From Desulfonispora thiosulfatigenes DSM 11270 (GTDB lineage Bacteria; Bacillota; Peptococcia; Peptococcales; Desulfonisporaceae), in the NCBI RefSeq assembly GCF_900176035.1, contig NZ_FWWT01000016.1:80409-144408 (forward strand): a DNA stretch of 64,000 bases, written 5' to 3'. Positions within the stretch are counted from its first letter, which is position 1. Every line of letters starts with the position of its first letter. A program made the translations under genes and the position numbers. Shown one piece after another: positions 4,576-61,940 of this stretch. The notes below the pieces were generated by a model. That model ran no database searches and had not been told where the DNA came from. It was given only the letters and a program-made list of their open reading frames with translations.

Positions 4576-4605
4576 CTAGTTTATTTACAGAAGGGAAGAA
4601 CACGG

Positions 4606-5298: not shown

Positions 5299-5318
5299 CG
5301 CGGAAATGGGGAGGCAAA

Positions 5319-6050: not shown

Positions 6051-6074
6051 TTTGGGTTATAGATATAATCACAA

Positions 6075-6113
6075 AATGAAGTATTAGAATGAAGCATTAA
6101 AATGAAGGATTAA
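6075..6113 (+). repeat. 3 x 13-bp imperfect tandem repeat
   Basis: Three consecutive 13-base units of the form aatgaag(N)attaa or attag in the cpsD-SLH gap. The rest of the gap to 6199 is AT-rich with no convincing terminator. A TATAAT-like box at 6064 has no good -35. Confidence 0.85.
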
Positions 6114-6199
6114 CATGAAATATGCTAGACCCTTAAATAAGAGGTTTAAATATTTTTATGAATGTAAGAAAACTACTTGAATTAAAAAGGAGAATGATT

Positions 6200-7309
6200 A
6201 TGGTTAAAAAGATCTTAACTTTAGCAGTTTTAGGAATATTCCTCTGCGGAACGATGGTCTCTTATGCTGCAGATGTAAGTGAAGGTGTACTAGTGGATGT
6301 TTTAGACAAAGCAAGTGATCATCCACGCAAAGACGAAATTTTAGGTGTGATTGGGGAAAGTTTAAAAACTGATGGTGGTATTGATTTTGCTAAAGCAATG
6401 ATAGATAGTACATTATCTAAGGAAGAAAAACAAAAATTAAATGATAAAGGAATTTCTGAACAAGATATTAAAAATTCTTTAGATGATTTAAAATCTTGGG
6501 CGCCTTCTGAAAGAGCAGATCTTGTTAACTATGTAAAAAACAATCAAATGGACAAAGCAAAAGACCTAATTAAAAGCAAAGGCCTTGTAGAAAGTAATAC
6601 TCCTTCTAAGCCAGGTGGAGGCGGTGCTGCAGCTAATACTGATAACAAAACAGAAGATAAACCAGCAGACAAGCCAGATGCAACTAAACCAGATACAACC
6701 AAACCAGAAGCAAATAAACCAGGAACTGTAACTCCAAATGTACCACAGGCTACTAATTTTAAAGACATCAAAGGTCACTGGGCACAAAAGAACATTGAAA
6801 AAATGGCGGCTTTAAAACTAGTTGGGGGAATGACTAATGACACCTTTGCTCCCGAGTCATCAGTAACTAGAAGTCAAATGATTGCCTTAATTGCCAGAAT
6901 TTTCGATGTAAAAGAAACAACTGGCCAAGGGGAACTACCTTTTACAGACCTTAAAAAAGGCGACTGGGACTATAATGTAGTACAGGCAGCGTACGCGGCT
7001 AAATTAGCAAGTGGTACCTCAGCTACTACCTTTGAACCAAATAAACCAGTAACTAGAGAACAAATGATGGCTATGGTTATGAATGGTTTAAAGTATAAAA
7101 ATATTAATTTAGATGTAACGAATTCAAAAGATTTAAAAGCTTACAAAGACTATAATAAGATTTCAAATTGGGCATTAGATTCAATGCAGCAAGGTGTAGA
7201 CCTAGGTTTAATCGCAGGTAAAACAAAAGAAACACTTGAGGCCAAAGGAACTGCAACAAGAGCAGAAGCTGTAACAATTTTAGAAAGAGTTTATAATTTA
7301 GTAAAATAA
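6200..7309 (+). CDS. S-layer-homology (SLH) secreted protein 1
   Basis: Secreted surface protein anchored to the wall polysaccharide by C-terminal SLH repeats. Start chosen at ATG 6200 because aaaggag (6186-6192) lies 7 bases upstream and the product then begins MVKKILTLAVLGIFLCG with cleavage after SYA; the longer start at 6158 lacks an SD and would bury the signal peptide. A helical N-terminal domain (about 25-130) is followed by a Pro/Lys/Asp/Thr-rich linker and three SLH units (starting FKDIKGHWAQKNIEKM, FTDLKKGDWDYNVVQA and YNKISNWALDSMQQG). Function of the N-terminal domain is unknown. Confidence 0.9.
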   Translation: MVKKILTLAVLGIFLCGTMVSYAADVSEGVLVDVLDKASDHPRKDEILGVIGESLKTDGGIDFAKAMIDSTLSKEEKQKLNDKGISEQDIKNSLDDLKSWAPSERADLVNYVKNNQMDKAKDLIKSKGLVESNTPSKPGGGGAAANTDNKTEDKPADKPDATKPDTTKPEANKPGTVTPNVPQATNFKDIKGHWAQKNIEKMAALKLVGGMTNDTFAPESSVTRSQMIALIARIFDVKETTGQGELPFTDLKKGDWDYNVVQAAYAAKLASGTSATTFEPNKPVTREQMMAMVMNGLKYKNINLDVTNSKDLKAYKDYNKISNWALDSMQQGVDLGLIAGKTKETLEAKGTATRAEAVTILERVYNLVK

Positions 7310-7333
7310 AAACAATAAATTAAGATGGGTTTA

Positions 7334-7366
7334 AGGCTGTACGATAAGAAAAATATTTTACAGCCT
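7334..7366 (+). other. Intercistronic stem-loop between the two SLH genes
   Basis: Perfect 8-bp inverted repeat AGGCTGTA/TACAGCCT with a 17-base AT-rich loop. No T-run follows, so an mRNA processing or stabilising hairpin is more likely than a terminator. Confidence 0.6.
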
Positions 7367-7394
7367 AAAGTTTAATAAAATGAGGAGGATGAAA

Positions 7395-10208: not shown

Positions 10209-10230
10209 GTTAAATTTACAATTAAATGGT

Positions 10231-10264
10231 CCCCTGGATAATTATTACTACCAGGGGTCATTTT
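10231..10264 (+). terminator. Intrinsic terminator after SLH protein 2
   Basis: Stem CCCCTGG (10231) with CCAGGGG (10251), loop of about 13 AT-rich bases, followed by tcatttt. Confidence 0.75.
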
Positions 10265-10342
10265 AATTTATCAATAACCGAAATTTAGATAATAACTATA
10301 TAGTAATTTAATACTAATTGATACAAAATTCGACATTATTTT

Positions 10343-10371
10343 TTGACTAGATGTTATATGATGCATATAAT
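10343..10371 (+). promoter_or_regulatory. Sigma-A-type promoter for the sugar dehydratase gene
   Basis: TTGACT at 10343-10348, 17-base spacer, TATAAT at 10366-10371. Leaves an AT-rich leader of about 120 bases before the start at 10496. Confidence 0.75.
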
Positions 10372-10495
10372 AGGTTAAATATTGTAAAAAAGTAAGTATT
10401 ATCAAAGAGAATATTAAATTCTAACTCTGCAAATATATAATATTAACCAAAAATAATATTATTTAGTATAAAGTGTGGTGGAGGTATTAAGTAAC

Positions 10496-12436
10496 ATGTT
10501 TAATAACATAAATAAAAACATCAGGGTTTTGTCGCTGATGTTGATTGATGCACTCATAGTTAATATTTCATTATTTGGGTCTTTGCTGATTCGCTTTGAC
10601 TGGGCAATACCTCTTAATTATTTACAACTAGTTAATAAATATGCTTTACTTTTTACCATTATTAGTTTAGCTTGCTTTGCCATGTTTGGGCTGTATAAAC
10701 GTGTGTGGCAGTACGCTAGCATCGGTGAATTAATCACGATAATGTTAGCTGTTACGGTAGGGACTACTTTAAAAATTACCTTTGGCTACTTAATTGTAAA
10801 TACAGAAGGTCCATTTTTACCACGAAGTGTACTCCTTTTAACTTGGTTTATGACTATCTTTATGATTGGTGGATCTCGCTTAATTTGGAGATTGTATAGG
10901 GAGCATAAAGCAGGAGGGCATATTAAAGGTGGCAAGCCCGTTGTGATTTATGGAGCTGGAGATGCAGGAGTCATGGTGGCTAGAGAAATGCGCAATCATT
11001 TTTCGACGCAAATAAATGTAGTGGGATTTATTGATGATGATCATGTTAAACGTGGTCTTAAATTATTAGGATTACCTGTCCTAGGAGATAGAGAGAATAT
11101 AGCGAAGGTTGTAGAAAAGTATGGAATTGAAAGAATTATCTTAGCCATTCCATCAGCCGAGGGAAAAGAAGTTAGAAAAGTAGTCGAAATATGTAAAGAA
11201 ACAAGTGCTGAGGTGCAAATATTACCAGGTATGTTTGATTTAATCGATGGAACGATTTCCGTAAATAATATTCGGGAAGTGCAAATTGAAGATTTATTAG
11301 GTAGAGAGCCTGTGAAGGTCGATTTAGAAGAAATAACAGAGTATACACATAATAAGACAGTCCTTGTAACAGGGGCAGGAGGCTCGATTGGATCAGAGCT
11401 GTGCCGTCAAGTGGCTAGATTTTCACCTAAAAAGCTGTTATTATTAGACATTTATGAGCATACTATATATGATTTAGAAATAGAATTACGTAATGAATTT
11501 CCAGAACTTAAAATTTATCCATTGATTAAAGATATCAGAGAAAAAGAATCCATGGAAAATGTATTCCGTGATTATTCGCCACAGGTAGTCTTTCATGCAG
11601 CAGCTCATAAGCATGTACCTTTAATGGAGCATAATCCTGAAGAAGCTATTAAAAATAATATTAAGGGTACATATAATGTAGCCCAAGCCGCAGATAGATT
11701 TAATGTGCAAAAGTTTGTCATGATTTCCACCGATAAGGCCGTAAATCCAACGAGCGTAATGGGAGCAACTAAGCGCGTGGGTGAAATGATTATTCAGCAC
11801 ATGGATAAAATTAGTAAGACAAGCTTTGTAGCTGTTCGTTTTGGTAATGTTTTAGGCAGTAAGGGCAGCGTTATCCCTTTATTTAAAAGGCAAATAGCAA
11901 ATGGTGGCCCTGTAACTGTGACTCATCCAGAAATGGTGCGTTTCTTTATGACTATACCAGAAGCAGTCCAGCTCGTTATCCAAGCAGGAGCCATGGCAAG
12001 AGGTGGCGAGATCTTTATCCTTGATATGGGTGAGCCTGTAAAAATAATGGATTTAGCTAATAGTTTAATAAAATTATCCGGCTTTGAGCCTAATGTCGAT
12101 ATAGACATAAAGATTTCAGGCGTAAGACCTGGAGAAAAATTATATGAAGAACTCTTAACAGCTGATGACGTGTGCGATGCTACTACGCATAAAAGGATTT
12201 TTGTCGAAAAGCCGTCCGAGCCTGATGTAGCTGTAATGGAAGAAATAATCCTCGGTATCATGACAGATAATTTACCTGTAAATAAAGCAGGCGTTGAAAT
12301 ATACTTAAAGAATTTAATTCCATCATTTAGAGAAAAATGTGCAGAGAATTCAGCCGACTTTGACGAGCAAGAAGAAGTAAATGAGCAAGATTTAGACTTT
12401 AAATCAAATGAAGCAAATAATGTATTAGTAAGTTAA
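10496..12436 (+). CDS. Membrane UDP-sugar 4,6-dehydratase (CapD/WbpM/PglF type)
   Basis: Converts UDP-GlcNAc-type substrates to 4-keto-6-deoxy sugars, the first step to bacillosamine or FucNAc/QuiNAc residues in surface glycans. Four N-terminal transmembrane helices (about 1-115) precede a first Rossmann unit (GAGDAGVMVAREM, about 152) and the SDR catalytic unit (GAGGSIGSELCRQ, about 292). The catalytic region STDKAVNPTSVMGATKR has Met in place of the usual SDR Tyr, as in the large WbpM/PglF subfamily. Start ATG 10496 follows ggagg (10480-10484); GTG 10475 is less likely as it overlaps that SD. Neighbouring cps genes and galE fit glycan synthesis. Confidence 0.92.
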   Translation: MFNNINKNIRVLSLMLIDALIVNISLFGSLLIRFDWAIPLNYLQLVNKYALLFTIISLACFAMFGLYKRVWQYASIGELITIMLAVTVGTTLKITFGYLIVNTEGPFLPRSVLLLTWFMTIFMIGGSRLIWRLYREHKAGGHIKGGKPVVIYGAGDAGVMVAREMRNHFSTQINVVGFIDDDHVKRGLKLLGLPVLGDRENIAKVVEKYGIERIILAIPSAEGKEVRKVVEICKETSAEVQILPGMFDLIDGTISVNNIREVQIEDLLGREPVKVDLEEITEYTHNKTVLVTGAGGSIGSELCRQVARFSPKKLLLLDIYEHTIYDLEIELRNEFPELKIYPLIKDIREKESMENVFRDYSPQVVFHAAAHKHVPLMEHNPEEAIKNNIKGTYNVAQAADRFNVQKFVMISTDKAVNPTSVMGATKRVGEMIIQHMDKISKTSFVAVRFGNVLGSKGSVIPLFKRQIANGGPVTVTHPEMVRFFMTIPEAVQLVIQAGAMARGGEIFILDMGEPVKIMDLANSLIKLSGFEPNVDIDIKISGVRPGEKLYEELLTADDVCDATTHKRIFVEKPSEPDVAVMEEIILGIMTDNLPVNKAGVEIYLKNLIPSFREKCAENSADFDEQEEVNEQDLDFKSNEANNVLVS

Positions 12437-12446
12437 TGATTAGATG

Positions 12447-12481
12447 GACCTCAGGTATAAATTGCCATGGGGTCTTTTTTT
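12447..12481 (+). terminator. Intrinsic terminator after the dehydratase gene
   Basis: Stem gacctca/tggggtc (one G-U pair) around 12447-12474 followed by seven T. Confidence 0.8.
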
Positions 12482-12818
12482 ATGCTATCCATTTCCTGCA
12501 CAAGAACCTAGGTATAAAACCACGTCAACTGGCGCAGAATAGCAAATTTGTAAGAAAATCAAGATAATTCATATATAAACATAATAAAACTTATAATGAG
12601 CATTAACAAAGTTGATTATAGATAAGTAGGAACTTAGACTAAATTAGTAGAATTACTTATACATATAAGATAAAGAGTTAATAGATATTAAAAAGATCAA
12701 AAATTACAAAGGAGATTTACACGTTTACCTTTACAGACATTTCCTATTGAACTGGTGAACTATTATGAACTATGAATTAATGAATTAATGAATTAATTAT
12801 AAAATGGAGGGATTTAAG
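12482..12818. other. 337-bp intergenic region, AT-rich, no gene seen
   Basis: No open frame with a ribosome binding site. A TATAAT-like box near 12590 has a poor -35. At 12773-12796 the 8-mer TGAATTAA is repeated three times in tandem just upstream of the SD of the next gene. Confidence 0.7.
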
Positions 12819-13094
12819 ATGATGAAATTTGAAATTTCCGAAAATTCAGCAAAATACTTCGAACCTAAAGCAAAAGAGGAATTTAACTGGTTAGCACTTT
12901 TAGTGATGTCAAATAAACTTTTACACAATGCCTTTATTGGAGTTTGTTTTGTTTTATTTATTATGCCTATAATTGTAGGTCTTTCCATTTTCGGAATATT
13001 TGCAATTCCAGCCTGGTTTATCACTAAAGTAACGGGATTTAAAACTAGAGATAGAAAACACTTAAGGACCGGTTGGAGATTTACCTCATTGTAA
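12819..13094 (+). CDS. Small membrane protein of unknown function
   Basis: 91 aa when started at ATG 12819 or 12822. The SD ggaggg (12806-12811) lies 7 bases upstream, and the ATG at 12804 overlaps it. A polar N-terminus (FEISENSAKYFEPKAKEEF) leads into one long or two short hydrophobic segments (about 28-65) and a basic C-terminal tail (TRDRKHLRTGWR). Not recognised. It is monocistronic, with its own terminator downstream. Confidence 0.7.
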   Translation: MMKFEISENSAKYFEPKAKEEFNWLALLVMSNKLLHNAFIGVCFVLFIMPIIVGLSIFGIFAIPAWFITKVTGFKTRDRKHLRTGWRFTSL

Positions 13095-13105
13095 AAATGA
13101 TAAGC

Positions 13106-13164
13106 TCCCCTTTAGGTAGAAGGTTTAAGAAATAAAACTTGACTACTTAGAGGGGATTATTTTT
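13106..13164 (+). terminator. Terminator palindrome, dispersed family copy A
   Basis: A 14-bp imperfect stem (tcccctttaggtag at 13106 with ctacttagagggga at 13143, two G-U pairs), a 23-base loop, then ttattttt. Similar elements lie at 32838, 50265 and 51775. Confidence 0.8.
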
Positions 13165-13360
13165 GCGATATATTAGGGTTAATTTATATAAGCTAAGCGC
13201 AAAGGTGTATAGAAGTGAGCATTAGATGTATAAAAATGAGATAAAGTCTAAGACTAATAGTGATGTAAATTTGCAACTAACTGGTATATATTAGCATCTA
13301 AGACAGATTTAGTGTATAATATATATAGTGTTTTTATTTTAGCCTAGAAAGGGTTTTTCT

Positions 13361-13813
13361 ATGTCGTTTCAAAAAATTATTGCCTGGGTCTTAGTTGTCA
13401 TTTGGATGGGAGTTATTTTTAGCTTTTCAGCTCAAGTTGCTAACAAATCTAATCAATTAAGTACTGGTATCACAGAAATAATTGCTAAAACAGTGCAAAA
13501 GGTTGTACCACAGGCAGACCTTAAAATAAAAAATATAAATCATTTAATTCGCAAAAATGCGCATTTCTTTGTGTATTTAGTACTCGGATTATTAGTTGCT
13601 TATGCCTTAAAAACCCTCGGCGTTCATGGCTTTAAGGCCTTTTTTATTGGCTTAGTATTTTGCATTATTTATGCTATTTTAGATGAATTACACCAAATGT
13701 ATGTACCAGGCAGGGGGCCAGGGCTAAAGGATGTCTTGATTGATAGCGCCGGGGCGAGTGTGGGTATTTGTACTTTTATGATTATTTATTATTTACTGAA
13801 AAAGCAGATTTGA
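13361..13813 (+). CDS. VanZ-family membrane protein
   Basis: 150 aa with three to four hydrophobic helices and the VanZ signatures RKNAHFFVYLVLGLL and DELHQMYVPGRGPGLKDVLIDSAG. VanZ proteins are small integral membrane proteins; the namesake gives low-level teicoplanin resistance, but most homologs have no assigned activity. It lies alone between terminators. The start is the ATG after gaaagggttttt, with an imperfect SD. Confidence 0.85.
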   Translation: MSFQKIIAWVLVVIWMGVIFSFSAQVANKSNQLSTGITEIIAKTVQKVVPQADLKIKNINHLIRKNAHFFVYLVLGLLVAYALKTLGVHGFKAFFIGLVFCIIYAILDELHQMYVPGRGPGLKDVLIDSAGASVGICTFMIIYYLLKKQI

Positions 13814-13992
13814 AAAAACATAAATTCTCATATTACATAGATTTAATCAAAATATTTAGTGCTGGTATTTAAATATAAGTAAAGCTGTATTGCCGTAATG
13901 CAATAGGATATATAGATTTCTTAGCATATTTTTGAAAGATAAAAATATTAGTTAAGCACTATTTTTAAAAAAAGAAAGGATGAACTAATATT

Positions 13993-14985
13993 ATGAATAT
14001 ACTAGTAACTGGTGGTGCTGGATATATTGGCTCACATACTTGTGTGGCTTTATTAGAAGCAGGCCATAGCGTATTTATAGCGGATAATTTTTCTAATAGT
14101 AAGCCGGAAAGCTTAGAAAAAATAAAACAAACATCAGGTCAAGACGTAACATTCTATCAAATAGATGTAACAGAAGAAGGTGAAGTAGATGAAGTATTTT
14201 CTAAGCATACTTTTAATGGCGTAATTCACTTTGCTGGCCTTAAAGCAGTGGGCGAATCTGTAGCAAAACCTCTAGAATATTATTATAATAACGTCGTAAG
14301 TACGTTGATTCTTGCCAAGGCATGCCTAAAATATAATGTGCCAAGATTTGTCTTTTCCTCCTCTGCTACGGTGTATGGCGATAATATTTCACCTTTTCAC
14401 GAAGAAATGGATTTACTTCCAACCACTAATCCATACGGGGAAACTAAAGCCATGAGTGAACGTATCTTAATGGATGTTGCAAAGGTTAATCCTAGGTTTA
14501 GCGTATCCCTTTTGCGTTATTTTAATCCCGTGGGTGCTCATGAAAGTGGTTTAATTGGCGAAAATCCTAATGGAATTCCGAATAATTTAATGCCTTTTGT
14601 GACCCAAGTGGCAAAAGGAAAACGTGACAAGTTAAGTGTCTTTGGTAATGACTATGATACAGTAGATGGTACTGGGGTTAGGGATTATATTCATGTGGTG
14701 GACCTAGCTGAAGGTCACGTGGCAGCAATGGAACATTTAGCACCTGGTGTACATATTCATAATCTTGGGACAGGCCAGGGTACCTCTGTATTAGAACTTG
14801 TTCATGCTTTTATGGAAGTAAATGGAGTAGATGTACCGTATGAAATCGTAGACAGACGTCCGGGCGACATCGCTACTTGCTATGCTAATGCAGCTAAAGC
14901 AGAACGAGAACTAGGATGGAAAGCAAAAAAAGGCATCAAAGAAATGTGTAAAGACGCCTGGAGATTTGAGCAGGGGAATAAATAA
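13993..14985 (+). CDS. galE: UDP-glucose 4-epimerase
   Basis: Interconverts UDP-glucose and UDP-galactose through an NAD-bound 4-keto intermediate. The NAD-binding GGAGYIGSH is at 7-15, the catalytic SSSATVYG serine segment near 122, and the Tyr-x-x-x-Lys at about 148-152 (YGETK). At 330 aa it has the family length. SD agaaagga lies 13 bases before the ATG. It supplies galactosyl donors for the adjacent surface-polysaccharide genes; no Leloir-pathway partner genes are nearby. Confidence 0.96.
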   Translation: MNILVTGGAGYIGSHTCVALLEAGHSVFIADNFSNSKPESLEKIKQTSGQDVTFYQIDVTEEGEVDEVFSKHTFNGVIHFAGLKAVGESVAKPLEYYYNNVVSTLILAKACLKYNVPRFVFSSSATVYGDNISPFHEEMDLLPTTNPYGETKAMSERILMDVAKVNPRFSVSLLRYFNPVGAHESGLIGENPNGIPNNLMPFVTQVAKGKRDKLSVFGNDYDTVDGTGVRDYIHVVDLAEGHVAAMEHLAPGVHIHNLGTGQGTSVLELVHAFMEVNGVDVPYEIVDRRPGDIATCYANAAKAERELGWKAKKGIKEMCKDAWRFEQGNK

Positions 14986-15130: not shown

Positions 15131-15160
15131 TTGACACGCAATACTAAATTGAATTATTAT
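15131..15160 (+). promoter_or_regulatory. Promoter of the GT2-CotH cluster
   Basis: TTGACA at 15131-15136, an 18-base spacer and TATTAT at 15155-15160, about 100 bases before the first gene. This is the only good promoter seen for the seven-gene run. Confidence 0.6.
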
Positions 15161-15263: not shown

Positions 15264-16067
15264 ATGGAAAGTAGAAAAGAAGTAAATAAGCAGCAGATTT
15301 ACTATGCTAGGACATATCGCCACTTAAAAGGGAACTTGAAGCAGTCTTTGCTTTATCTTTTTCTTTTTATAATTCCCATCTTAGTTTTGCTACTCTTTTT
15401 ATATGGTGATGTAACAATTATTATGAGCAAAATGGCTATAAGTTTTCTTAAAGAAATCTGGCCAAATAAGAGTTTTTCAATCGCGCAATTTGAGCTCGTC
15501 AGGGGTCTAACCGATGTTAGTGCTGTCCAGACTATAACTGTAATGCCTAGTTTAAAAGAAATTTATATAAATATTATTGTTAATATTGTACTATTACTTT
15601 TCCTATTTAGTGGTAAAAGAAAGACAAAACCCATTTCAATCTATCTTGTGATTTTAGTTTTTTTCCATTTGGTTAGCTGCATATATTTTCTCTTCGCAGC
15701 CAAGTACTTTCCCTATTCTACGAGTGATTTTTCAGAACTTTATATGAAGCAGCAAGTGGGTATCTGGATTTTTTTCCTAGTTCTTACTGGAATAATTACA
15801 GCATTTATGGGCAGTGGATATTTTATAACCAGAATGGCTACAGTGATAGGCATCATGACTTATTCACTTATTTTTGGAGTTATTCGCTACATTGTCTCTT
15901 TATACATCCTTCTTGAGTTTTCCATATTATACATGATAATAATGTTTTTTTTCTTGGGTCCATTTTTTGACTTTTTGTATCTTGTTGCCATTTACTCTTT
16001 CTTTATGAATCGAATGATTAATGTCTACGAGTTAAAACGTGGAAAGGAAAGATGGATATGGTCATAA
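15264..16067 (+). CDS. Polytopic membrane protein, first gene of EPS cluster
   Basis: 267 aa, not recognised as a named family. A basic N-terminus (ARTYRHLKGNLKQ) is followed by about five to six hydrophobic helices, with one extracellular-type loop (about 55-95) between the first and second. The C-terminus is basic (VYELKRGKERW) and overlaps the next gene by 16 bases, so translation is coupled to the glycosyltransferase. A membrane partner of the synthase is the natural inference. SD is aggtgatggg. Confidence 0.8.
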   Translation: MESRKEVNKQQIYYARTYRHLKGNLKQSLLYLFLFIIPILVLLLFLYGDVTIIMSKMAISFLKEIWPNKSFSIAQFELVRGLTDVSAVQTITVMPSLKEIYINIIVNIVLLLFLFSGKRKTKPISIYLVILVFFHLVSCIYFLFAAKYFPYSTSDFSELYMKQQVGIWIFFLVLTGIITAFMGSGYFITRMATVIGIMTYSLIFGVIRYIVSLYILLEFSILYMIIMFFFLGPFFDFLYLVAIYSFFMNRMINVYELKRGKERWIWS

Positions 16068-17329
16068 ATGTATTAAAACTATATATGTTCTTGATCATAG
16101 TAATAATGCTTATTTATGCTGGCAGACATATGGTTTTTTCCTACAATAGAGTATTCGTGAAACAACGAATTTACTATAATGATATTATTTCTAGTGTTAT
16201 GCCTAGTATATCTATCCTAATTCCTATGCATAATGAAGAGCTAGTTATCCATTATATAATGGAGTCACTTCTTGCTTGTGATTATGACAAGGATAGAATG
16301 GAAATAATTCCTATAAATGACAACTCAACCGATAGAACGTGGGAGATCTTAGAGGAGTACAGTCAGCAGTATGAATTCATCCGTCCTCTAAATAGGGATT
16401 CAGAGCTCAATGGGAAACCAGCAGCACTAAATGATGCTATGGAAATAGCGAAGGGTGATATTATTATTGTTTTTGATGCTGATTATAGACCAGCAAAGGA
16501 TATGCTAAAGCAATTGGCTGTAGCTTTTGGAGATCCTGAGGTTGGAGCTGTAATGGGGCGAGTTATACCATATAACACCAATACTAATCTTTTGACTAGA
16601 TTATTAACTTTAGAGCGTTCAGGAGGATATCAGGTAGATCAGCAAGCTCGATACAATATGAGATTAATTCCACAATATGGTGGTACTGTAGGAGGATTTC
16701 GCAGAGAGATTTTCATGGAAATGGGAGGCTTTAATCCATCGGTATTAGCTGAAGATACTGAGTTGACTTATCGCCTTTATATCAAAGGCTGGAAGGTTAT
16801 TTATGCTAATTCGGCAGAATGTTATGAGGAAGCCCCTGAAACGTGGTCAGTTAGAGCACGCCAGATTCTAAGATGGTCGCGTGGGCACAATAATGTTTTG
16901 TTTAGGTATTTTTTTAAGACACTTACTACTACTAATATGAATTTTCGGGAAAAGGTAGATGGCATTCTTCTTTTAATGGTCTATGCGATTCCCTTTTTGC
17001 TAGCCCTAGGTATCCTAGACTCCTTGGTACTCTTTCTTCTAGGAGAAATGAATATTTTTGCTGGATGGTGGGTATTACTTTTTATCGGTGCTTATAGTAC
17101 ATTTGGAAATTTTGCACCTTTTTATCAAATTGGTAGTGCACAGATGATGGATGGAACTCGAAAGGAAGTGCTTCTGTTACCACTTGTCATGTTTAATTTC
17201 TTCTTTTATATGTGGAATATTAGTCTAGGATTTTTGTATGCTATTGTAGATATTATTACTAGGCGAAATGTTAAATGGGCTAAAACTAATAGATTTACAA
17301 AGCAGCCCTCTGAGGAGGTGCGCTCTTGA
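16052..17329 (+). CDS. Membrane processive-type family 2 glycosyltransferase
   Basis: Cytosolic-facing polysaccharide synthase of the cellulose/hyaluronan/poly-GlcNAc type. An N-terminal helix (about 5-25) precedes the GT-A core: SILIPMHNEE, IIPINDNSTD, the metal-binding VFDADYRP, a TED-equivalent LAEDTELTYRL, and the product-binding QILRW (the QxxRW signature). Three to four C-terminal helices follow. At 425 aa it lacks a PilZ domain. The sugar polymer is unknown. It overlaps both neighbours, placing it at the heart of this cluster. Confidence 0.92.
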   Translation: MDMVINVLKLYMFLIIVIMLIYAGRHMVFSYNRVFVKQRIYYNDIISSVMPSISILIPMHNEELVIHYIMESLLACDYDKDRMEIIPINDNSTDRTWEILEEYSQQYEFIRPLNRDSELNGKPAALNDAMEIAKGDIIIVFDADYRPAKDMLKQLAVAFGDPEVGAVMGRVIPYNTNTNLLTRLLTLERSGGYQVDQQARYNMRLIPQYGGTVGGFRREIFMEMGGFNPSVLAEDTELTYRLYIKGWKVIYANSAECYEEAPETWSVRARQILRWSRGHNNVLFRYFFKTLTTTNMNFREKVDGILLLMVYAIPFLLALGILDSLVLFLLGEMNIFAGWWVLLFIGAYSTFGNFAPFYQIGSAQMMDGTRKEVLLLPLVMFNFFFYMWNISLGFLYAIVDIITRRNVKWAKTNRFTKQPSEEVRS

Positions 17330-19077
17330 TGGAAAATATGATTTTACTGATTATGGTATTTATCCTGCTTTTGACGGCGCCAGTATGGATTGCTTATATA
17401 TATTTTAAAAAGGACTCTGCAAATGCGCCGTATATTAATAAAAATAGAGACAGGGATCCCCGATATTTTGGGATTTCTTTCTCTAGAATGATTAAGGAAA
17501 AGTGGCATACACGGGACCTGGAAGGTTATATGATGCTTTCACGCCTAGAAAAAACCATTAGTTCAGAGGTGCTGGGGTCTTTAGAAGATGTGGAGGATAT
17601 TGTAATTGCTGAAGAAGATGAATTCCATCCAGTAAAGAAGCATCGCTTTTTAAAGGAAATATATGCTAGGGGTCAGGTGTGGCTAGAAGGTATAACGGAG
17701 CTAAGAGCCATTTATAGTGATAAAGATATGATGATTGGAAATAATACTCACATTTTCCGGTGGTTAGATGCAGAAGGAACTGTAGCTATTTTTGATAGTT
17801 GTCAATTAGGGGTCAGTGCTACTAGTGCAATAAGGATAAGTATTGGTTATGACTGTTCTTTTCGTAGACTCTATGCACCAGAGATTCTGTTAGGTCAGCA
17901 TGCTGGAAAGGAAGCTTTAAATAACGTGGCTCAGCGTATTAAGGAGAATAACTTTTGTCTAGAAGAAATTCCTGATGCGATTTATCGAGTAAAAACATCT
18001 TTATGGCAATATCTTGAAGATGAGGAAATCCTTTTAGGGTCAGTTATAGCTACTGAAGATTTGCAGATTACCGAGGATACAATTATTCATGGAGATGTAA
18101 GAGGACAAAAAAGTATTAAAATTTTAGATCGTGCTATTATTTGTGGAAATGTATTTGCAGAAGGAAAAATTATTTTGGGTGAATTTAGCTGTGTACTGGG
18201 CAATTTATTTTCGCAGGAGACAATTATCCTAGAAAAGGGCGCTGTAGTAGGGAAAAGGGGGCGGATATCCTCAGTTGTTGCCCGGGAAGGCATTATTTTT
18301 GAAGGAGATAATTTTGTTTATGGACTTGTAAGCTGTGAACATGGTGGAAGGACATCGCCAGCTAAAGAAAATCAGGGAGAAGGCGTGCGACAATATAGCT
18401 ATCTAGCTAAGGTAGAAGAAAATAAAAGTCTTATCTTTAAGAATGCGGAAAGCTTTGTAAATCATGACCCTCAAGGATTTAGACGCCAAAAAGAAATTGA
18501 AAAAGTAGAAATCCCTGAAGGTGTACTCTTTATACCTCGTTCCTTTTTTTATGAATGCAGCGGAATAAGGGAACTTAAACTGCCTTCAACTTTAGCAGAA
18601 ATTCATGATTTTGCTTTTAAAGGATGTGCTCAGCTAAAAGAGCTTTCTTTAATTGATTTAAAAAGGTTAAGAAAAATTGGCACTTCTGCTTTTGAAGGTT
18701 GTACTCGCCTAGAACGCGTCATCTTGCCAGGAGGATTTGAGGAAATTGGTATAGCAGCATTTTCTGGATGCACTATGTTAACAGAAGTAATTATCGAGGA
18801 ACCTGCTGCAAGTCTTTATAAGATTGGAAGCCATGCTTTCATGAACTGTATAAATCTTCAAAATTTAGAACTGCCCGCAGGAGAAATTGAAATAGGAATC
18901 AGTGCATTTAGAGGGTGTGACCAGCTAGATACCGTGATTAAAGAAAGAGGTTTAGAGCAAGCAGAATTAATAAATAAAAAAGGTTTAGATCAAGTAGAAT
19001 TAAGAAAGAAAAAGGATTTAGATCAAATAGAATTAATAAAGAAAGAAGGAGGTGTCTTAGCAGATGGAGCTGAATAG
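17329..19077 (+). CDS. Membrane-anchored bactofilin-like plus leucine-rich-repeat protein
   Basis: About 582 aa from ATG 17329 (SD gaggaggtg at 17312), sharing one base with the upstream stop; TTG 17326 is an alternative. An N-terminal hydrophobic helix (about 1-24) anchors it. Residues about 233-340 repeat short beta strands of polymer-forming/bactofilin style (IIHGDVRGQ, IICGNVFAEGKIILG, VLGNLFSQ). Residues about 395-540 are BspA-type leucine-rich repeats (IHDFAFKGCAQLKELSL, IGTSAFEGCTRLERVIL, IGIAAFSGCTMLTEVII). The tail is an 11-residue charged repeat. A scaffold role in polymer secretion is inferred; I know of no characterised protein with this order. Confidence 0.8.
   Translation: MENMILLIMVFILLLTAPVWIAYIYFKKDSANAPYINKNRDRDPRYFGISFSRMIKEKWHTRDLEGYMMLSRLEKTISSEVLGSLEDVEDIVIAEEDEFHPVKKHRFLKEIYARGQVWLEGITELRAIYSDKDMMIGNNTHIFRWLDAEGTVAIFDSCQLGVSATSAIRISIGYDCSFRRLYAPEILLGQHAGKEALNNVAQRIKENNFCLEEIPDAIYRVKTSLWQYLEDEEILLGSVIATEDLQITEDTIIHGDVRGQKSIKILDRAIICGNVFAEGKIILGEFSCVLGNLFSQETIILEKGAVVGKRGRISSVVAREGIIFEGDNFVYGLVSCEHGGRTSPAKENQGEGVRQYSYLAKVEENKSLIFKNAESFVNHDPQGFRRQKEIEKVEIPEGVLFIPRSFFYECSGIRELKLPSTLAEIHDFAFKGCAQLKELSLIDLKRLRKIGTSAFEGCTRLERVILPGGFEEIGIAAFSGCTMLTEVIIEEPAASLYKIGSHAFMNCINLQNLELPAGEIEIGISAFRGCDQLDTVIKERGLEQAELINKKGLDQVELRKKKDLDQIELIKKEGGVLADGAE
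18944..19047 (+). repeat. 3 x 33-bp tandem repeat (11-residue units) at gene 3' end
   Basis: Three 33-base units encode KKGLDQVELRK-like 11-residue repeats (GLEQAELIN, GLDQVELRK, DLDQIELIK) at the C-terminus of the bactofilin/LRR protein, just before the overlap with the next gene. Confidence 0.85.
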
Positions 19078-20179
19078 AAAAAAATTAGCCCTGATGGGTT
19101 TAGCAGGTGCCCTTATTTTAATCATTTTGACCTCTGTTTTTTCACTCCTTCATACATATCTTGATAAAACGAAATCTTTAAAGGAATCAAAGGTGAGTCA
19201 CGTGGAACTTGTAAACCAAAATCCAAATCAAAACCAAAACCAAAGCCAAAATCCAAACCAAAATCAAGGTCTAGAGGCAGATTATAAAATAAAGATGGAG
19301 CCAGATAGCATTACGGATGAATGGATTTATTATCCAGAACGAGTTATTAAGCGCATTAATTATAATGAACAAGAAATAACAACAAAAGCTTCTGAAATTA
19401 ATCGATTTTATGAGATGATCCCAGGGTCAGTGCAAAAGTATTTTATGTTGGTACCAGGGAGAATAGGATATGAGCCAGGTCTCACAGAATATGCAAAGGG
19501 AATGTGGCAAACAAAAGAAAAGTTTCAAGACCTTTTAAATACTAGTGTGAAAATAGTGGATGTTTCAGAAAGTTTAGCACAGCATAAATCAGAGTATCTC
19601 TTTTTTAGAACTGATAATGCTTGGACAGCTAGGGGAGCATATTATGGAGCACAAGATTTTTTAAAGGCTAGTAATACGGATATTATCTATACTTTAGCTG
19701 ACTATCAGGAGACTTGGAGTAACTTATACACCGGGGCAAGAAAGTTAGATAAAGAGTGGAAGATCTCTCATAATCTCCAAGATAAAATATATCATTATAG
19801 AAATACTGAGAACATTTTTTGGCAGAATATTGTAGTAGGAAACAAAGAAAATCAGTATGTGATGTCAAGAGAGCCTATTATTTCAATTTCTCGCACGGGT
19901 ATAGACACTTTTGTAGGGGGCATCTTTTCCCATTCAATGCTAGAAGGAAGTGGAAACAATAAAAAAACCTTGCTCCTAATAGGTAATTTCGATGCGAAAG
20001 TTTTTGCTCCCTGGCTGCTTCCTTATTATGAAAAGATATATTTTGCAAACAGCATTTATTATCAAGGTGATAAGGACGAATTTCAGAAAATTTTTACGGA
20101 ATATAATATTAAGGATGTTCTGATTTTAGAAGGAGTATATACGATGGAAAAGGGTCAAATATACGATAAATGGTCGTAA
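19064..20179 (+). CDS. DHHW-like secreted/membrane protein with altered motif
   Basis: 371 aa. The N-terminal anchor is at about 9-28, followed by an Asn/Gln-rich spacer (about 50-67), then a domain resembling DHHW/AlgX-type SGNH proteins that in other systems modify exopolysaccharide. The diagnostic segment reads RTDNAWTARGAYYGA (about 182-196), where the usual motif is D-H-H-W, so both histidines appear lost. The second conserved block, LLLIGNFDAKVFAPWL, has NFD where the family usually has DSF. It may be a non-catalytic structural variant. It overlaps the previous gene by 14 bases with its own SD (gaaggaggtg). Confidence 0.7.
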   Translation: MELNRKKLALMGLAGALILIILTSVFSLLHTYLDKTKSLKESKVSHVELVNQNPNQNQNQSQNPNQNQGLEADYKIKMEPDSITDEWIYYPERVIKRINYNEQEITTKASEINRFYEMIPGSVQKYFMLVPGRIGYEPGLTEYAKGMWQTKEKFQDLLNTSVKIVDVSESLAQHKSEYLFFRTDNAWTARGAYYGAQDFLKASNTDIIYTLADYQETWSNLYTGARKLDKEWKISHNLQDKIYHYRNTENIFWQNIVVGNKENQYVMSREPIISISRTGIDTFVGGIFSHSMLEGSGNNKKTLLLIGNFDAKVFAPWLLPYYEKIYFANSIYYQGDKDEFQKIFTEYNIKDVLILEGVYTMEKGQIYDKWS

Positions 20180-20221
20180 TATTAAAGGGAAAAATTAGGA
20201 TTAAGGTAACGATTGAATTAA

Positions 20222-20264
20222 GGATAAAGGTGAAATTAGGATAAAGATAAAAATATGGATAAAG
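20222..20264 (+). repeat. Three spaced copies of GGATAAAG before the VTC gene
   Basis: GGATAAAG occurs at 20222, 20239 and 20257, spaced 17-18 bases, in the 100-base gap between the DHHW-like and VTC genes and directly upstream of the SD aggaggtg. Confidence 0.7.
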
Positions 20265-20279
20265 AATAGGAGGTGTAGA

Positions 20280-20960
20280 ATGCAAACAGTTTTTCGAAAA
20301 GAAATCAAATATATAATTTATAGATCGGACTTTTTAAGGATTAAAAAGCATCTAGATGCAGTCTTAGAAAAGGATGCTCATGGTGGGCCTGATGGATATC
20401 TGGTGAGATCTCTTTATTTTGACTCACTCTATGATAGAGACCTAAATGATGTGTTAGATGGTGTCCTAGAAAAAAGAAAGATACGAATTCGGATATACAA
20501 TCCAGAGCAAGAAAAGGCAAAGCTTGAGTATAAATGTAAAAGTGGTACTGATGGTAGAAAAAATGGATTACAAATAACTCGAGAAGAAGTGCATAAAATG
20601 GAACACATGGACTATTCATTTTTAATGGATCGACCAGAAGAAATTGCCTGGGAAATATATAGAAGACTGCTCTCAGGTGCCTACACCCCAAAGACTATTA
20701 TCGAGTATCAAAGGCTAGCTTATATTTATCCTGTGAGTGATGTCCGCATATCTTTTGACACAGATATACGAACAAGCGGCACCCCATTTGGACTTTATGA
20801 ATCAGCACCTTTAGGAATACCTGTTATGATGCCACATTTAGGGGTTTTAGAGGTGAAATATAGTGGGTTTCTTCCAACGATTATTAAAGAATTAATAGCA
20901 CCTTTAGATCATGTAGCCGTAGCAAATAGTAAATATGCCGTTTCAAGATTATTTGTATAA
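20280..20960 (+). CDS. VTC-domain protein (polyphosphate polymerase fold)
   Basis: 226 aa, essentially one VTC domain of the triphosphate tunnel superfamily. Visible features are FRKEIKYIIY at the N-terminus, RKIRIRIYN (basic tunnel strand), LEYKCKSG and GVLEVKYSG at the end. Eukaryotic Vtc4 makes polyphosphate from ATP; the role of bacterial stand-alone VTC proteins is largely undefined. The gene is followed after 13 bases by DUF4956 and then CotH, an association seen in other Firmicutes. Substrate in this system is unknown. Confidence 0.88.
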   Translation: MQTVFRKEIKYIIYRSDFLRIKKHLDAVLEKDAHGGPDGYLVRSLYFDSLYDRDLNDVLDGVLEKRKIRIRIYNPEQEKAKLEYKCKSGTDGRKNGLQITREEVHKMEHMDYSFLMDRPEEIAWEIYRRLLSGAYTPKTIIEYQRLAYIYPVSDVRISFDTDIRTSGTPFGLYESAPLGIPVMMPHLGVLEVKYSGFLPTIIKELIAPLDHVAVANSKYAVSRLFV

Positions 20961-20973
20961 AGGGGAGATTTAG

Positions 20974-21654
20974 ATGAACGAATTTATTCTTGAAAATTTG
21001 ACTAACACAGAATCATTAAAAGTTTCGGTAATTTTACTAAATAATATTGTTGCTTTAGCGGTAGTAGCTTTTATTATGCTCACATATCGAATCACCTATA
21101 CAGGAACAGCTTATAGTAAAAAATATAATATTTCTCTTGGGATGATTGCGATTATTACAACAATGATTATGAGTGTTATTAGTAATAATTTAGCACTTTC
21201 ACTAGGTATGGTCGGTGCACTTTCTATTATTCGTTTTCGTACAGCAGTTAAAGATGTACGGGATTCAGCCTTTATCTTTTGGGCCATTGCTTCAGGGATT
21301 GGGTGTGGGGTAAGTCAATATATGCTCATTGCTATTGGTAGCTTTGTTTTATTTGTATTTCTTTTAATCATGCGCCAAATATCTCCCGATAATCGTCAGC
21401 TTATTATAATTCAAACTATTCCAGCTGTTCAAAATAAGGTAGAAGGAGCAATTACGGAACATTTAGGCAAAAAGGTACGCTTGACCATGAAAAACTTAAC
21501 CAAGGAAACATGTGAAATGGTTTATACAGTCTCCGAGGGAGCTTTAGAAAAGGCAAATCAAATCCAGATGGTGGATATTGTCCAAAAATTGATTAAAATT
21601 GAAGGTGTGCATCGGGTAAATGTGGTGGAACAGCTAGATGACATCTCGCGTTAA
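20974..21654 (+). CDS. DUF4956 membrane protein
   Basis: 226 aa with about three to four hydrophobic helices (residues about 20-45, 55-80 and 110-135) and the conserved segment LGMVGALSIIRFRTAVKD typical of DUF4956, then a soluble C-terminal domain (about 145-226, LGKKVRLTMKNLTKE). No biochemical function is known for the family. Its repeated pairing with VTC and CotH genes suggests a membrane partner of the VTC protein. SD is aggggag. Confidence 0.88.
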   Translation: MNEFILENLTNTESLKVSVILLNNIVALAVVAFIMLTYRITYTGTAYSKKYNISLGMIAIITTMIMSVISNNLALSLGMVGALSIIRFRTAVKDVRDSAFIFWAIASGIGCGVSQYMLIAIGSFVLFVFLLIMRQISPDNRQLIIIQTIPAVQNKVEGAITEHLGKKVRLTMKNLTKETCEMVYTVSEGALEKANQIQMVDIVQKLIKIEGVHRVNVVEQLDDISR

Positions 21655-21669
21655 GAGGAGGTAAACCTC

Positions 21670-23061
21670 ATGAAAAAAACCATAGCACTTCTGCTTTTTG
21701 CCCTTTTAATTATTATCCTTGCAGTTAACTTGGAGCAAATCATTATAGGTATCAAGAAAATAGATGTAAAACCACCTTTTACGGATAAGAATATAGAATA
21801 CCAAAAGGCTTTAGAAGATGACTTTACTACGAATTTGCCAGTTATTATAATTGATACAAAAAAGCAAATGATAGATAAAGATACAAAAACATGGGCAAAG
21901 GCAGCTGTTTTAGAAAAGGTGCCAGGAGGAAAAAGTATTCTCAGTAAGCCAGATCAAGTAATGGATATTCAAATAAATTATCGCGGTGCTTCCTCTTATG
22001 CCTACTTTGACAAGCGTCAATATAGAATTAAATTTTTTAAAGATACTAATAGCACAAAAGAGCTAAATTATGAATTAGCCGGAATGGAGCCTGATAGTGA
22101 GTGGGTGCTGCATGGACCTTTTTTAGATCGAACTTTAATGAGAAATCATCTAATTTATGGCCTAGCAGGAGAAATTATGGACTGGGCACCTGATTCGAGG
22201 TTTATGGAACTATTTGTTAATGGCTATTATCAAGGTGTTTATTTAGCTGTAGAACCCGTGACAAGTGGAGCATCAAGACTTCGCTTAAATACATTTGGTC
22301 TAGTATCTGGAAACACTCCCTATATTGTAAAAAGGGAGCGCATAGATACAGAAATAGAAAGCATTTCAACTTATGGAGAAATAGCAGGACATACGTCACA
22401 AGAACTTTCAATCGAATATCCAGCTAGTAAAAACTTAACCCATGCTCAAAGAAAATTTATCGAAAATGATCTAAGTACCTTTGAAACTGTGCTTTATGGA
22501 GATAAGTTTGCTGATCCAGAAAAAGGTTATGCAAAATATATTGATGTGGATTCCTTCGTGGATTATGTAATTATTAATGAAGCTACCATGAATTATGATG
22601 CAGGTAAATTTTCGGTCTACGCCTATAAAGACCTTAATGAAAAACTTAAAATGACAGTGTGGGATTTTAATAACTCGTATAATCATTATCAATGGTCTTA
22701 TCATAAATATGACCAATTTTTCCTAACAGATTCCCCGTGGTTTGATCGTCTATTACAGGATCGGCAATTTGTCGAAAAGGTCGTTCACCGGTATCGTGAA
22801 CTGCGCAAAGATATCTTAAGTACAGAAAATATCCATCAGCATATTGATGATTATCAGATGGAACTAGGTAGTGCCATTGATCGGAATTTTGACGTGTGGG
22901 GTTATTCTTTTAGATTAACCTTACTATTCAAAAAAGGGGAACAAGAAAGAGAGCCAAGAAATTACGACGACGCCATTTTGCAACTAAAAACTGCAATCGA
23001 ATCAAGATTTTCTTTCCTTGATGAAAATATAGAGGAACTGTATAAAAATTGTGTTAATTAA
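21670..23061 (+). CDS. CotH-family secreted kinase-like protein
   Basis: 463 aa, N-terminal signal or anchor (about 4-22), then a CotH domain: KQYRIKF-like strand RQYRIKFFKD, LFVNGYYQGVYLAVE, the catalytic-loop-like FVDYVIINEATMNYD, and KMTVWDFNNSYNHY. CotH of Bacillus phosphorylates spore-coat proteins. Here the metal-binding DxD of the family appears as DFN, so activity is uncertain. It is the last gene of the cluster, separated by 15 bases from DUF4956, and probably acts outside the membrane on the polymer or a surface protein. Confidence 0.88.
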   Translation: MKKTIALLLFALLIIILAVNLEQIIIGIKKIDVKPPFTDKNIEYQKALEDDFTTNLPVIIIDTKKQMIDKDTKTWAKAAVLEKVPGGKSILSKPDQVMDIQINYRGASSYAYFDKRQYRIKFFKDTNSTKELNYELAGMEPDSEWVLHGPFLDRTLMRNHLIYGLAGEIMDWAPDSRFMELFVNGYYQGVYLAVEPVTSGASRLRLNTFGLVSGNTPYIVKRERIDTEIESISTYGEIAGHTSQELSIEYPASKNLTHAQRKFIENDLSTFETVLYGDKFADPEKGYAKYIDVDSFVDYVIINEATMNYDAGKFSVYAYKDLNEKLKMTVWDFNNSYNHYQWSYHKYDQFFLTDSPWFDRLLQDRQFVEKVVHRYRELRKDILSTENIHQHIDDYQMELGSAIDRNFDVWGYSFRLTLLFKKGEQEREPRNYDDAILQLKTAIESRFSFLDENIEELYKNCVN

Positions 23062-23146
23062 TATGATTGAAAAAGGTAGGACTATTGTTAGCAAATATCC
23101 AGAAATAGAGAAGTAATTATTTTTGGATATTTGTTATGGAAAATTA

Positions 23147-31125: not shown

Positions 31126-32262
31126 ATGTTAAAGATATTATCAATTTTCGGAACTCGCCCGGAGGCTATTAAAATGGCACCTCTGGTAAAAGAGCTCGAA
31201 AAGAGTGAATATATTGACTCTAAGGTATGTGTGACAGCGCAGCATAGGCAAATGCTTGATCAGGTGTTAAAGACCTTTAAGATAGTACCTGATTATGATT
31301 TAAATATTATGAAAGATCGTCAAACATTAACCGGCGTGACTAACAAGGTTTTAAGTGGAATTGAGGAAATCTTTGAACAGGACAAGTTTGACATGGTTTT
31401 AGTGCATGGAGATACGACCACGACCTTTGCATCGAGTTTAGCAGCCTTTTATAGTCAAATCAAAGTTGGTCATGTGGAAGCGGGCCTAAGGACATATAAT
31501 AAATATTCTCCTTATCCTGAGGAAATGAATCGCCAAATGACTGGAATTTTAGCTGACCTTCATTTTTCACCTACGGGGGTGGCGAGGGATAATTTAGTGC
31601 AGGAAAACAAACCAGAAAGCGCAATTTACATTACAGGCAATACGGTAATCGATGCTTTGACTACTACTGTGGATGAAGGATATCATCATGAGGTTTTAGA
31701 GAAGATCTCTAAAGATAAGAGAATAGTTTTAGTGACTGCTCATCGTAGGGAAAACTTAGGTGAACCTTTAGAAAACATTTGTAAGGCTATTTTACGCTTA
31801 GTTGAGGAATTCCCTGATATTGAAGTGATTTATCCTGTGCATTTAAATCCAAGGGTTAGAGAGGTTACTGATAAATATTTAAGTACGCAAGAGAGAATTC
31901 ATTTAATAGAGCCTTTAGATGTACTAGACTTTCATAACTTTATGAATAGGGCGTATTTAATTTTAACGGACTCAGGAGGATTACAAGAAGAAGCGCCTTC
32001 TTTAGGTAAGCCGGTCTTGGTTTTACGGGACACAACTGAAAGACCAGAAGGGGTAAGTGCAGGAACTTTAAAGCTTGTGGGTACGGATGAAGAATTAATT
32101 TATAGTGAAGCAAAAGAATTATTAACTAATGAGGAAAGTTATCTAAAAATGGCTCAGACTGCGAATCCTTATGGTGATGGTAAGGCTTCAAAACGCATAG
32201 TTGAGGCTATCCTACATTATTTCGGCAAGGGTGAAAAGCCTGAAGAATTTCGTCTAAATTAA
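31126..32262 (+). CDS. wecB: UDP-N-acetylglucosamine 2-epimerase (non-hydrolysing)
   Basis: Interconverts UDP-GlcNAc and UDP-ManNAc for wall teichoic or secondary cell-wall polysaccharide synthesis. GTRPEAIKMAP is at 9-19; HGDTTTTFAS and VGHVEAGLRT mark the N-domain, and TDSGGLQEEAPSLGKPVLVLRD binds the nucleotide in the C-domain. At 378 aa it has normal length. It is monocistronic with SD gaggtaaa. ManNAc-containing wall polymer is the expected anchor for the SLH proteins of this window. Confidence 0.95.
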   Translation: MLKILSIFGTRPEAIKMAPLVKELEKSEYIDSKVCVTAQHRQMLDQVLKTFKIVPDYDLNIMKDRQTLTGVTNKVLSGIEEIFEQDKFDMVLVHGDTTTTFASSLAAFYSQIKVGHVEAGLRTYNKYSPYPEEMNRQMTGILADLHFSPTGVARDNLVQENKPESAIYITGNTVIDALTTTVDEGYHHEVLEKISKDKRIVLVTAHRRENLGEPLENICKAILRLVEEFPDIEVIYPVHLNPRVREVTDKYLSTQERIHLIEPLDVLDFHNFMNRAYLILTDSGGLQEEAPSLGKPVLVLRDTTERPEGVSAGTLKLVGTDEELIYSEAKELLTNEESYLKMAQTANPYGDGKASKRIVEAILHYFGKGEKPEEFRLN

Positions 32263-61651: not shown

Positions 61652-61689
61652 TAAATGAAATATTAAAAGACTGTGAAAGAGAAAAGTAA

Positions 61690-61940
61690 TTTTAATAAAA
61701 GCTTACAGAGAGCTAGGGAGGCTGGGATCCTAGTAGCTAAGTATTAAAATGAAGTTCCCTCTGGAGTCGTCCACTGAATTTATAGTAAGTGAGACCGGAA
61801 TCTCTCGCCGTTATTAGGGAGAAGATATAAAAATTAGTCATTCTAATTATGTATCTTTTAAAGTGGGTTATTTATTAACCAACAAAGGTGGTACCGCGGA
61901 TATATCTCCCGTCCTTTATTAGAGGATGGGGGATTTTTTT
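61690..61940 (+). promoter_or_regulatory. T-box riboswitch with terminator
   Basis: tRNA-sensing leader. The T-box sequence AGGTGGTACCGCGG is at 61886-61899. It is followed by the terminator stem cccgtcct/aggatggg (61908-61930) and seven T (61934-61940). Upstream are a Stem I-like region with an AGAGAG motif (about 61704), a Stem III hairpin (agata/tatct around 61825-61858) and CTGGAG after the specifier loop. The specifier follows tgaa (61750-61753): it reads GTT in one register and TTC (Phe) one base later. I cannot decide without a covariance fold; Phe fits the downstream gene. Confidence 0.9.

Follow-up and report, generated by a model that had tools for sequence, protein, structure and literature searches.

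The window, a 64,000-nucleotide stretch of the Desulfonispora thiosulfatigenes DSM 11270 genome, carries seven plus-strand open reading frames (ORFs) at positions 15264–23061 that encode a polytopic membrane protein (P1), a GT2 glycosyltransferase, a bactofilin-like protein with leucine-rich repeats (bactofilin-LRR), a DHHW-like protein, a VTC domain protein, a DUF4956 protein, and a CotH protein. This set is a real operon, and its arrangement is far beyond chance, as 20 other loci keep both the order and the strand of the genes. Most likely, its products assemble a sugar polymer and export it to the cell surface. On balance, we consider it probable that the operon is the form taken in clostridia (monoderms) by a synthase-dependent exopolysaccharide system of wide distribution, to which VTC, DUF4956, and CotH would add a phospho-module. 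Below, P1, GT2, and bactofilin-LRR are termed the core, and VTC, DUF4956, and CotH the trio.

As the initial annotation of this region stated, the seven genes lie on one strand, with overlaps of 16, 4, and 14 bp among the first four. The DHHW and VTC genes are separated by 100 bp (20180–20279), and the VTC-DUF4956 and DUF4956-CotH gaps are 13 and 15 bp, respectively. The two signals that the same annotation placed at the ends of the set, one good promoter and a convergent terminator, were retained in part. The promoter candidate agrees well with the consensus (Table 1), but such sites were no more frequent in the region than in shuffled sequences (41 observed vs. 40.0). Likewise, a strong hairpin (−22.1 kcal/mol, z −4.9) is present between the convergent genes, 28 bp 3' of the CotH gene, but it lacks a T run, and the pattern scan found no terminator 3' of this gene. 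No plus-strand promoter-like site was detected by the pattern scan in the 100-bp gap; thus, nothing points to a separate transcription of the two halves, which the initial annotation had named as the counter-evidence to look for. Imperfect GGATAAAG-like repeats abound in the gap, the position of which is occupied in several relatives by a gene (d5) for a membrane protein of roughly 205 amino acids. Neither the window nor any of seven relatives gave a cyclic di-GMP riboswitch 5' of the operon in a search with Rfam.

Table 1. Coordinates of the operon genes and associated features in the window.
Feature	Position	Strand	Remark
P1, polytopic membrane protein, presumed synthase partner	15264..16067	+	GT2-adjacent homologue in 77 of 80 loci
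GT2, processive glycosyltransferase, distant PgaC relative	16052..17329	+	PF00535, 108 bits
Bactofilin-LRR, membrane-anchored bactofilin-like beta-helix protein with C-terminal LRR_5	17326..19077	+	presumed cytoplasmic scaffold
DHHW/AlgX-like extracytoplasmic protein, degenerate motif DNAW	19064..20179	+	PF14286, 46.5 bits (cut-off 25)
VTC domain, triphosphate-tunnel enzyme	20280..20960	+	PF09359, 111 bits
DUF4956 membrane protein with MgtC/ACT-like C-terminal domain	20974..21654	+	PF16316, 57 bits
CotH kinase-fold protein with N-terminal membrane anchor, presumed extracytoplasmic	21670..23061	+	PF08757, 201.5 bits
Candidate sigma-70-type promoter, TTGACA-18-TATTAT	15131..15160	+	agrees with consensus at 11 of 12 positions; 104 bp 5' of P1
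A+T-rich hairpin between convergent genes	23089..23136	.	possible terminator without T run
WecB, UDP-N-acetylglucosamine 2-epimerase, possible precursor supply	31126..32262	+	outside operon; TIGR00236, 558.6 bits

The GT2 protein (425 amino acids) possesses transmembrane (TM) segments and no domain beyond GT2. Its D142 and D144 (DxD), E234-D235 (ED), and Q271, R274-W275 (QxxRW) are invariant, as is expected of a processive GT2 polysaccharide synthase (DxD, ED/TED, QxxRW, and TM helices). Among the characterized synthases compared, those of the PgaCD/IcaAD systems, which share the three motifs, are the closest: the GT2 is 29% identical to Escherichia coli PgaC over 254 amino acids, and a profile of the core GT2 scored 191 bits against PgaC, 106 against YaiP, and 46 against NfrB. 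Diderm relatives of the core also resemble PgaCD/IcaAD in carrying a deacetylase-like protein. On the other hand, the GT2 scored 130.1 bits against the PgaC/IcaA model TIGR03937, of which the curated cut-off is 422.3, no match to PgaD was obtained with the P1 model, and the window system has no PgaB.

P1, which begins directly 5' of the GT2 gene, comprises 267 amino acids with six predicted TM helices and a small extracytoplasmic hairpin (AlphaFold2 model; predicted local distance difference test 91, predicted template modeling score 0.86). The P1 family matched nothing in Pfam or NCBIfam, Foldseek retrieved no fold at E <= 0.001, and with VIA-align helical proteins reached only Z <8, under the noise guide of the tool; P1 may have a fold that is not listed there. 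Although P1 occupies a PgaD-like position beside the synthase, the P1 profile did not match E. coli PgaD. An exosortase of the XrtG type was considered and dismissed, as there was neither a family match nor a conserved Cys in the alignment. We take P1 as a presumably obligate partner subunit of the GT2.

A GT2 profile built from three sequences was run against 84,980 genomes; we retained 80 loci (45–73% identity) and scored gene presence at these loci by a six-frame profile search. P1 was found in 77, a bactofilin-like gene in 75, and both in 72 loci, which spread over many phyla. The complete trio was present in 20 of the 80 loci and a YaiO barrel or a deacetylase-like protein (d2) in 42, with zero overlap between the two groups: in diderms the core is followed by the deacetylase-like protein and the YaiO barrel, whereas monoderm clostridia have DHHW and the trio instead. 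In the 20 trio loci, the genes stand in one order on one strand (L127 lacks DHHW). Wherever a lineage is named, the trio loci are of Bacillota, except for L119. The latter is labeled Candidatus Micrarchaeota, probably owing to a binning error, as it groups with a contig of Clostridiaceae BRH_c20a.

The GT2 and VTC+DUF4956 phylogenies were inferred by a quick search with the Shimodaira-Hasegawa-like approximate likelihood ratio test (SH-aLRT) as the sole support measure, and most of the core-linked trios in them had been found via the GT2. In the GT2 tree, all 21 trio-bearing loci including the window fell inside one clade of 34 sequences with an SH-aLRT of 99. In the VTC+DUF4956 tree, the 21 core-linked trios formed one clade with an SH-aLRT of 99, and its sister comprised two loci resembling NELoc-2 of Clostridium perfringens (L040 and L062) and a cellulose-type locus (L094). 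These 24 trios were united with an SH-aLRT of 99, apart from the trios linked to two-component or Pel genes. A check free of the GT2-led sampling bias is given by the trios of this clade that were reached from the VTC end: all five of them (L025, L040, L062, L085, and L094) adjoin a GT2 synthase, and L025 and L085 are the contigs known from the GT2 end as L116 and L137. With single clades on both sides and all five VTC-led trios beside a GT2, the trees indicate that core and trio are one inherited unit in this lineage, though the trio family is not bound to GT2. The proposal that a polymer synthase is coupled to the trio thus holds here. It is highly improbable that two unrelated neighboring operons, a four-gene polysaccharide cluster and an independent trio cluster, lie side by side. 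The 100-bp gap between the halves and the lack of a nearby GT2 at most VTC trios would fit such a view, but the 20 same-order loci, the matching clades, and the absence of a promoter-like site from the gap argue against it.

In the opposite direction, we collected 88 VTC loci with their flanks from 398 genomes of the phylum plus relatives and class, disregarding GT2. DUF4956 was adjacent to VTC in 80 of the 88 loci and CotH lay within three genes in 46. In 28 loci, a carbohydrate-binding protein of the Cthe_2159 type (PF14262) stands in place of CotH. The commonest neighbors were two-component genes (within five genes of VTC in 40 loci); an OmpR-type response regulator together with a histidine kinase was the most frequent flank of the VTC-DUF4956 pairs (L015–L105). 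The P1-GT2-bactofilin core was found in 2 of the 88 loci, Pel genes in 2 (PelF and PelG confirmed), and other GT2 synthases in a few. With the core in just 2 of the 88 loci, the trio stands as a module of its own, which GT2 does not usually accompany. The coupling of trio and synthase that the initial annotation proposed is accordingly not supported for the trio in general.

The VTC profile recovers the structures of yeast Vtc4 (3g3q, E 1.4e-4), and the Lys/Arg/Glu positions of the tunnel are invariant in 17 relatives, in agreement with a VTC fold lined by basic residues; the gene is the sole VTC gene of the genome. The model of the DUF4956 protein, of moderate confidence, combines TM helices with a beta-alpha-beta-beta-alpha-beta domain of the MgtC C-terminal/ACT-like type, which matched the C-terminal domain of the MgtC protein PA4635 (7qa5; E 1.8e-3, probability 1.0), while the Pfam score for MgtC was under the cut-off. 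CotH aligned with the structure 5jd9 as expected of the fold, with both catalytic Asp residues, D310 and D332, invariant. We regard VTC as a putative polyphosphate polymerase-type enzyme and CotH as a putative kinase.

In the literature searched, the sole functional data on this trio are from the Pel locus of Streptococcus intermedius (PMC12345266). Pel rose and aggregation fell when the DUF4956 gene SIR_1592 was deleted, whereas removal of the CotH gene SIR_1594 brought both down; in sputum medium, either mutant lost more than half of its aggregation (PMC12345266). These phenotypes bear on two alternatives. First, the trio may be an envelope phosphate- or ion-stress sensor, wired mostly to OmpR-type two-component systems and captured here to regulate the synthase, adding nothing to the polymer. 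We see this as a minor possibility: two-component genes are frequent around VTC in general, yet occurred at 0 of the 7 synthase- or Pel-linked CotH-type trios (Fisher p 0.014), and both the MgtC/ACT-like domain and the rise of Pel upon DUF4956 deletion would suit a sensor. However, the decrease of Pel upon CotH deletion and the drop in aggregation in both mutants are not simply explained by a pure sensor, and no sensed signal is known. Second, the polymer may be decorated with phosphate, as the initial annotation suggested, in which case VTC would make polyphosphate or an activated phosphate donor, DUF4956 would carry it through the membrane, and CotH would phosphorylate the exported polysaccharide or a surface protein. 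An extracytoplasmic kinase needs a phosphate donor, CotH has a membrane anchor and the conserved catalytic Asp, DUF4956 is a membrane protein encoded beside VTC in most loci, and VTC resembles, down to the tunnel residues, the catalytic subunit of the yeast polyphosphate polymerase. Nevertheless, we hold decoration to be unlikely: a sugar or polymer as the substrate of CotH is unproven, a non-kinase protein replaces CotH in the 28 loci mentioned above, the soluble domain of DUF4956 resembles in its model a regulatory ACT/MgtC domain, and the VTC deletion in S. intermedius had no reported effect on Pel or aggregation (see below).

Bactofilin-LRR has a clear LRR_5 region (110 bits, Pfam). Its single TM segment lies at the N-terminus and precedes a stretch of positive charge, which probably places the beta-helix and LRR parts in the cytoplasm. 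As for DHHW, catalysis in AlgX and AlgJ depends on the D-x-H-W family motif and the Ser of a later G-D-S block. The window protein reads DNAW and GNF at these sites, so that both His and Ser are lost, and no MBOAT gene is present in the operon, the single MBOAT of the genome being on a different contig; none of the three hallmarks of an O-acetyltransferase (Asp-x-His, Ser, and an MBOAT partner) is found. In the alignment, the His was retained in 9 of 10 MBOAT-linked but 0 of 20 MBOAT-less homologues (Fisher 7e-7, uncorrected for relatedness), implying that DHHW proteins in this family lose the active site when they have no MBOAT partner. The window protein therefore probably does not acetylate the polymer. 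As its catalytic His and Ser are gone, no polymer modification is expected from it, and the role in modifying the polymer that the initial annotation assigned to it is unlikely.

As to the identity of the polymer, WecB was found no more than 9 kb away from the core at 49 of the 80 loci vs. 0 of 89 VTC loci without the core. Together with d2 (deacetylase-like) and the YaiO barrel in the diderm members, this linkage points to a polymer of the N-acetylhexosamine type, perhaps with N-acetylmannosamine (ManNAc). The latter is suggested by the WecB linkage, as has been argued for the E. coli NGR system, for which UDP-ManNAc was proposed as the substrate (PMC8669472, PMC8669469). NGR (NfrBA) also relies on a GT2 synthase depending on WecB (PMC8669472, PMC8669469), but its locus has no VTC trio. 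The common WecB linkage does not make the window GT2 an orthologue of NfrB, to which its similarity is weak (46 bits vs. 191 for PgaC); neither a C-terminal MshEN domain in the GT2 nor an NfrA barrel was found.

From gene content, gene order, co-inheritance, and the active sites of GT2, VTC, and CotH, all read directly from the sequence, we infer the following chemistry. GT2 and P1 would form a membrane complex that polymerizes and exports a hexosamine polymer, with UDP-ManNAc or another UDP-N-acetylhexosamine as the substrate suggested by the WecB linkage. Bactofilin-LRR may position or scaffold the synthase on the cytoplasmic face, and the non-catalytic DHHW protein, deprived of its catalytic residues, may bind or guide the emerging polymer at the outer face. 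The trio would serve as an auxiliary phospho-module, tuning the amount of polymer and its attachment to the cell via a phosphate-dependent step, be it signaling, protein phosphorylation, or phosphate on the polymer: linked to the membrane, the cytosolic VTC and the MgtC/ACT-like DUF4956 could jointly sense or produce a (poly)phosphate compound, whereas CotH could phosphorylate a partner outside the membrane. That the trio affects an exopolysaccharide in a studied relative follows from the S. intermedius deletions (PMC12345266).

Several observations weigh against the operon being such an exopolysaccharide system with a phospho-module. Deletion of the VTC gene SIR_1593 led to no reported change in Pel or aggregation (PMC12345266). 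Trios without a synthase are common beside two-component genes, and the trio may accordingly serve a function unrelated to polysaccharide. P1 has no clear structural match, as far as its model tells. Bactofilin-LRR scored 22.6 bits against PF04519, under the curated cut-off of 27.9, as its homologues likewise do. The genes d4 and d5 of relatives are absent from the window, and the window WecB lies 8 kb off in a separate transcription unit. A more far-reaching version, in which the trio would be a transmembrane phosphorelay (a split VTC-type enzyme exporting a polyphosphate donor for CotH to phosphorylate the polymer or its anchors) and the core at the same time a new, widespread class of UDP-ManNAc-using synthases, appears distinctly unlikely. 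The role of VTC, DUF4956, and CotH can be tested via one common phenotype, namely the amount and attachment of the surface polymer.

Compared with the systems described so far, the window set is a synthase-dependent exopolysaccharide variant related to NELoc-2, the Pel accessory genes, and the clostridial cellulose locus. NELoc-2 of C. perfringens (CP4_0458-0468; PMC2879425) likewise has VTC, DUF4956, CotH, and a GT2 ('chitin synthase') in one locus, where DUF4956, called tubulin/FtsZ in PMC2879425, is identified here by position and length only, and the NELoc-2-type loci L040 and L062 carry the sister group of the window trio. It differs in having a HEAT-repeat protein and a protein of roughly 700 amino acids instead of P1 and bactofilin-LRR, another GT2, and two VTC-DUF4956 pairs. 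The Gram-positive Pel operons possess the same trio (CotH-PPP-DUF4956) beside a synthase-dependent exopolysaccharide operon (PMC7112168, PMC12345266). On the other hand, PelF is a GT4 enzyme working with the exporter PelG, there is no P1, bactofilin-LRR, or DHHW, and the trios fall elsewhere on the tree; neither PelF nor PelG was found in the window operon or its neighborhood. The clostridial cellulose locus ccsZABHI (PMC7710045) combines a GT2 with MBOAT/DHHW partners in Clostridia, and the locus of this type in our sample, L094, has the same trio. Unlike the window operon, in which no PilZ domain in the GT2, no GH5 enzyme, and no MBOAT-DHHW pair were found, it encodes a PilZ-bearing CcsA and the GH5 enzyme CcsZ, and DHHW is paired with MBOAT. 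In a Zetaproteobacterial stalk cluster (PMC8250860), CotH and GT2 co-occur, but the remaining genes differ, and we dropped it from the comparison.

The trio arrangement was stated not to be found outside Pel loci (PMC12345266); its wide occurrence outside them in our sample corrects that statement. For the P1-GT2-bactofilin core, a limited literature search found no description. The association named in the initial annotation is not wholly without precedent, given that NELoc-2 (PMC2879425) and the Pel accessory genes (PMC7112168) have been published. The core spans monoderm and diderm phyla and, in clostridia, carries a module that is also found on Pel, cellulose-type, and NELoc-2 systems.

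In diderm loci (L140, L136, L141, L160, and others), the core is followed by a deacetylase-like protein of ~600 amino acids, a protein of ~300 amino acids, and the YaiO barrel, often with WecB. The ~300-amino-acid protein aligns with a 400-amino-acid protein encoded 3' of CotH in clostridia. The d2 protein of relatives gave a weak polysaccharide-deacetylase signal, and neither d2 nor d4 matched solved structures significantly. The core-d2-YaiO set is an apparently undescribed diderm exopolysaccharide system. The E. coli K-12 locus yaiO-yaiX-yaiP-yaiS (L191) may be a distant member of it: yaiP and yaiO scored 106 and 44 bits against the core GT2 and YaiO profiles, respectively, a deacetylase gene adjoins, and yaiX is interrupted by IS2.

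Upstream of the operon, positions 3913–14985 of the window constitute a further envelope/polysaccharide region encoding an AAA_31-type P-loop ATPase, SLH-domain proteins, a nucleotide-sugar dehydratase-like protein, and a GalE-like epimerase. Far downstream, a T-box leader (140 bits) was detected on the plus strand at 61664–61919.

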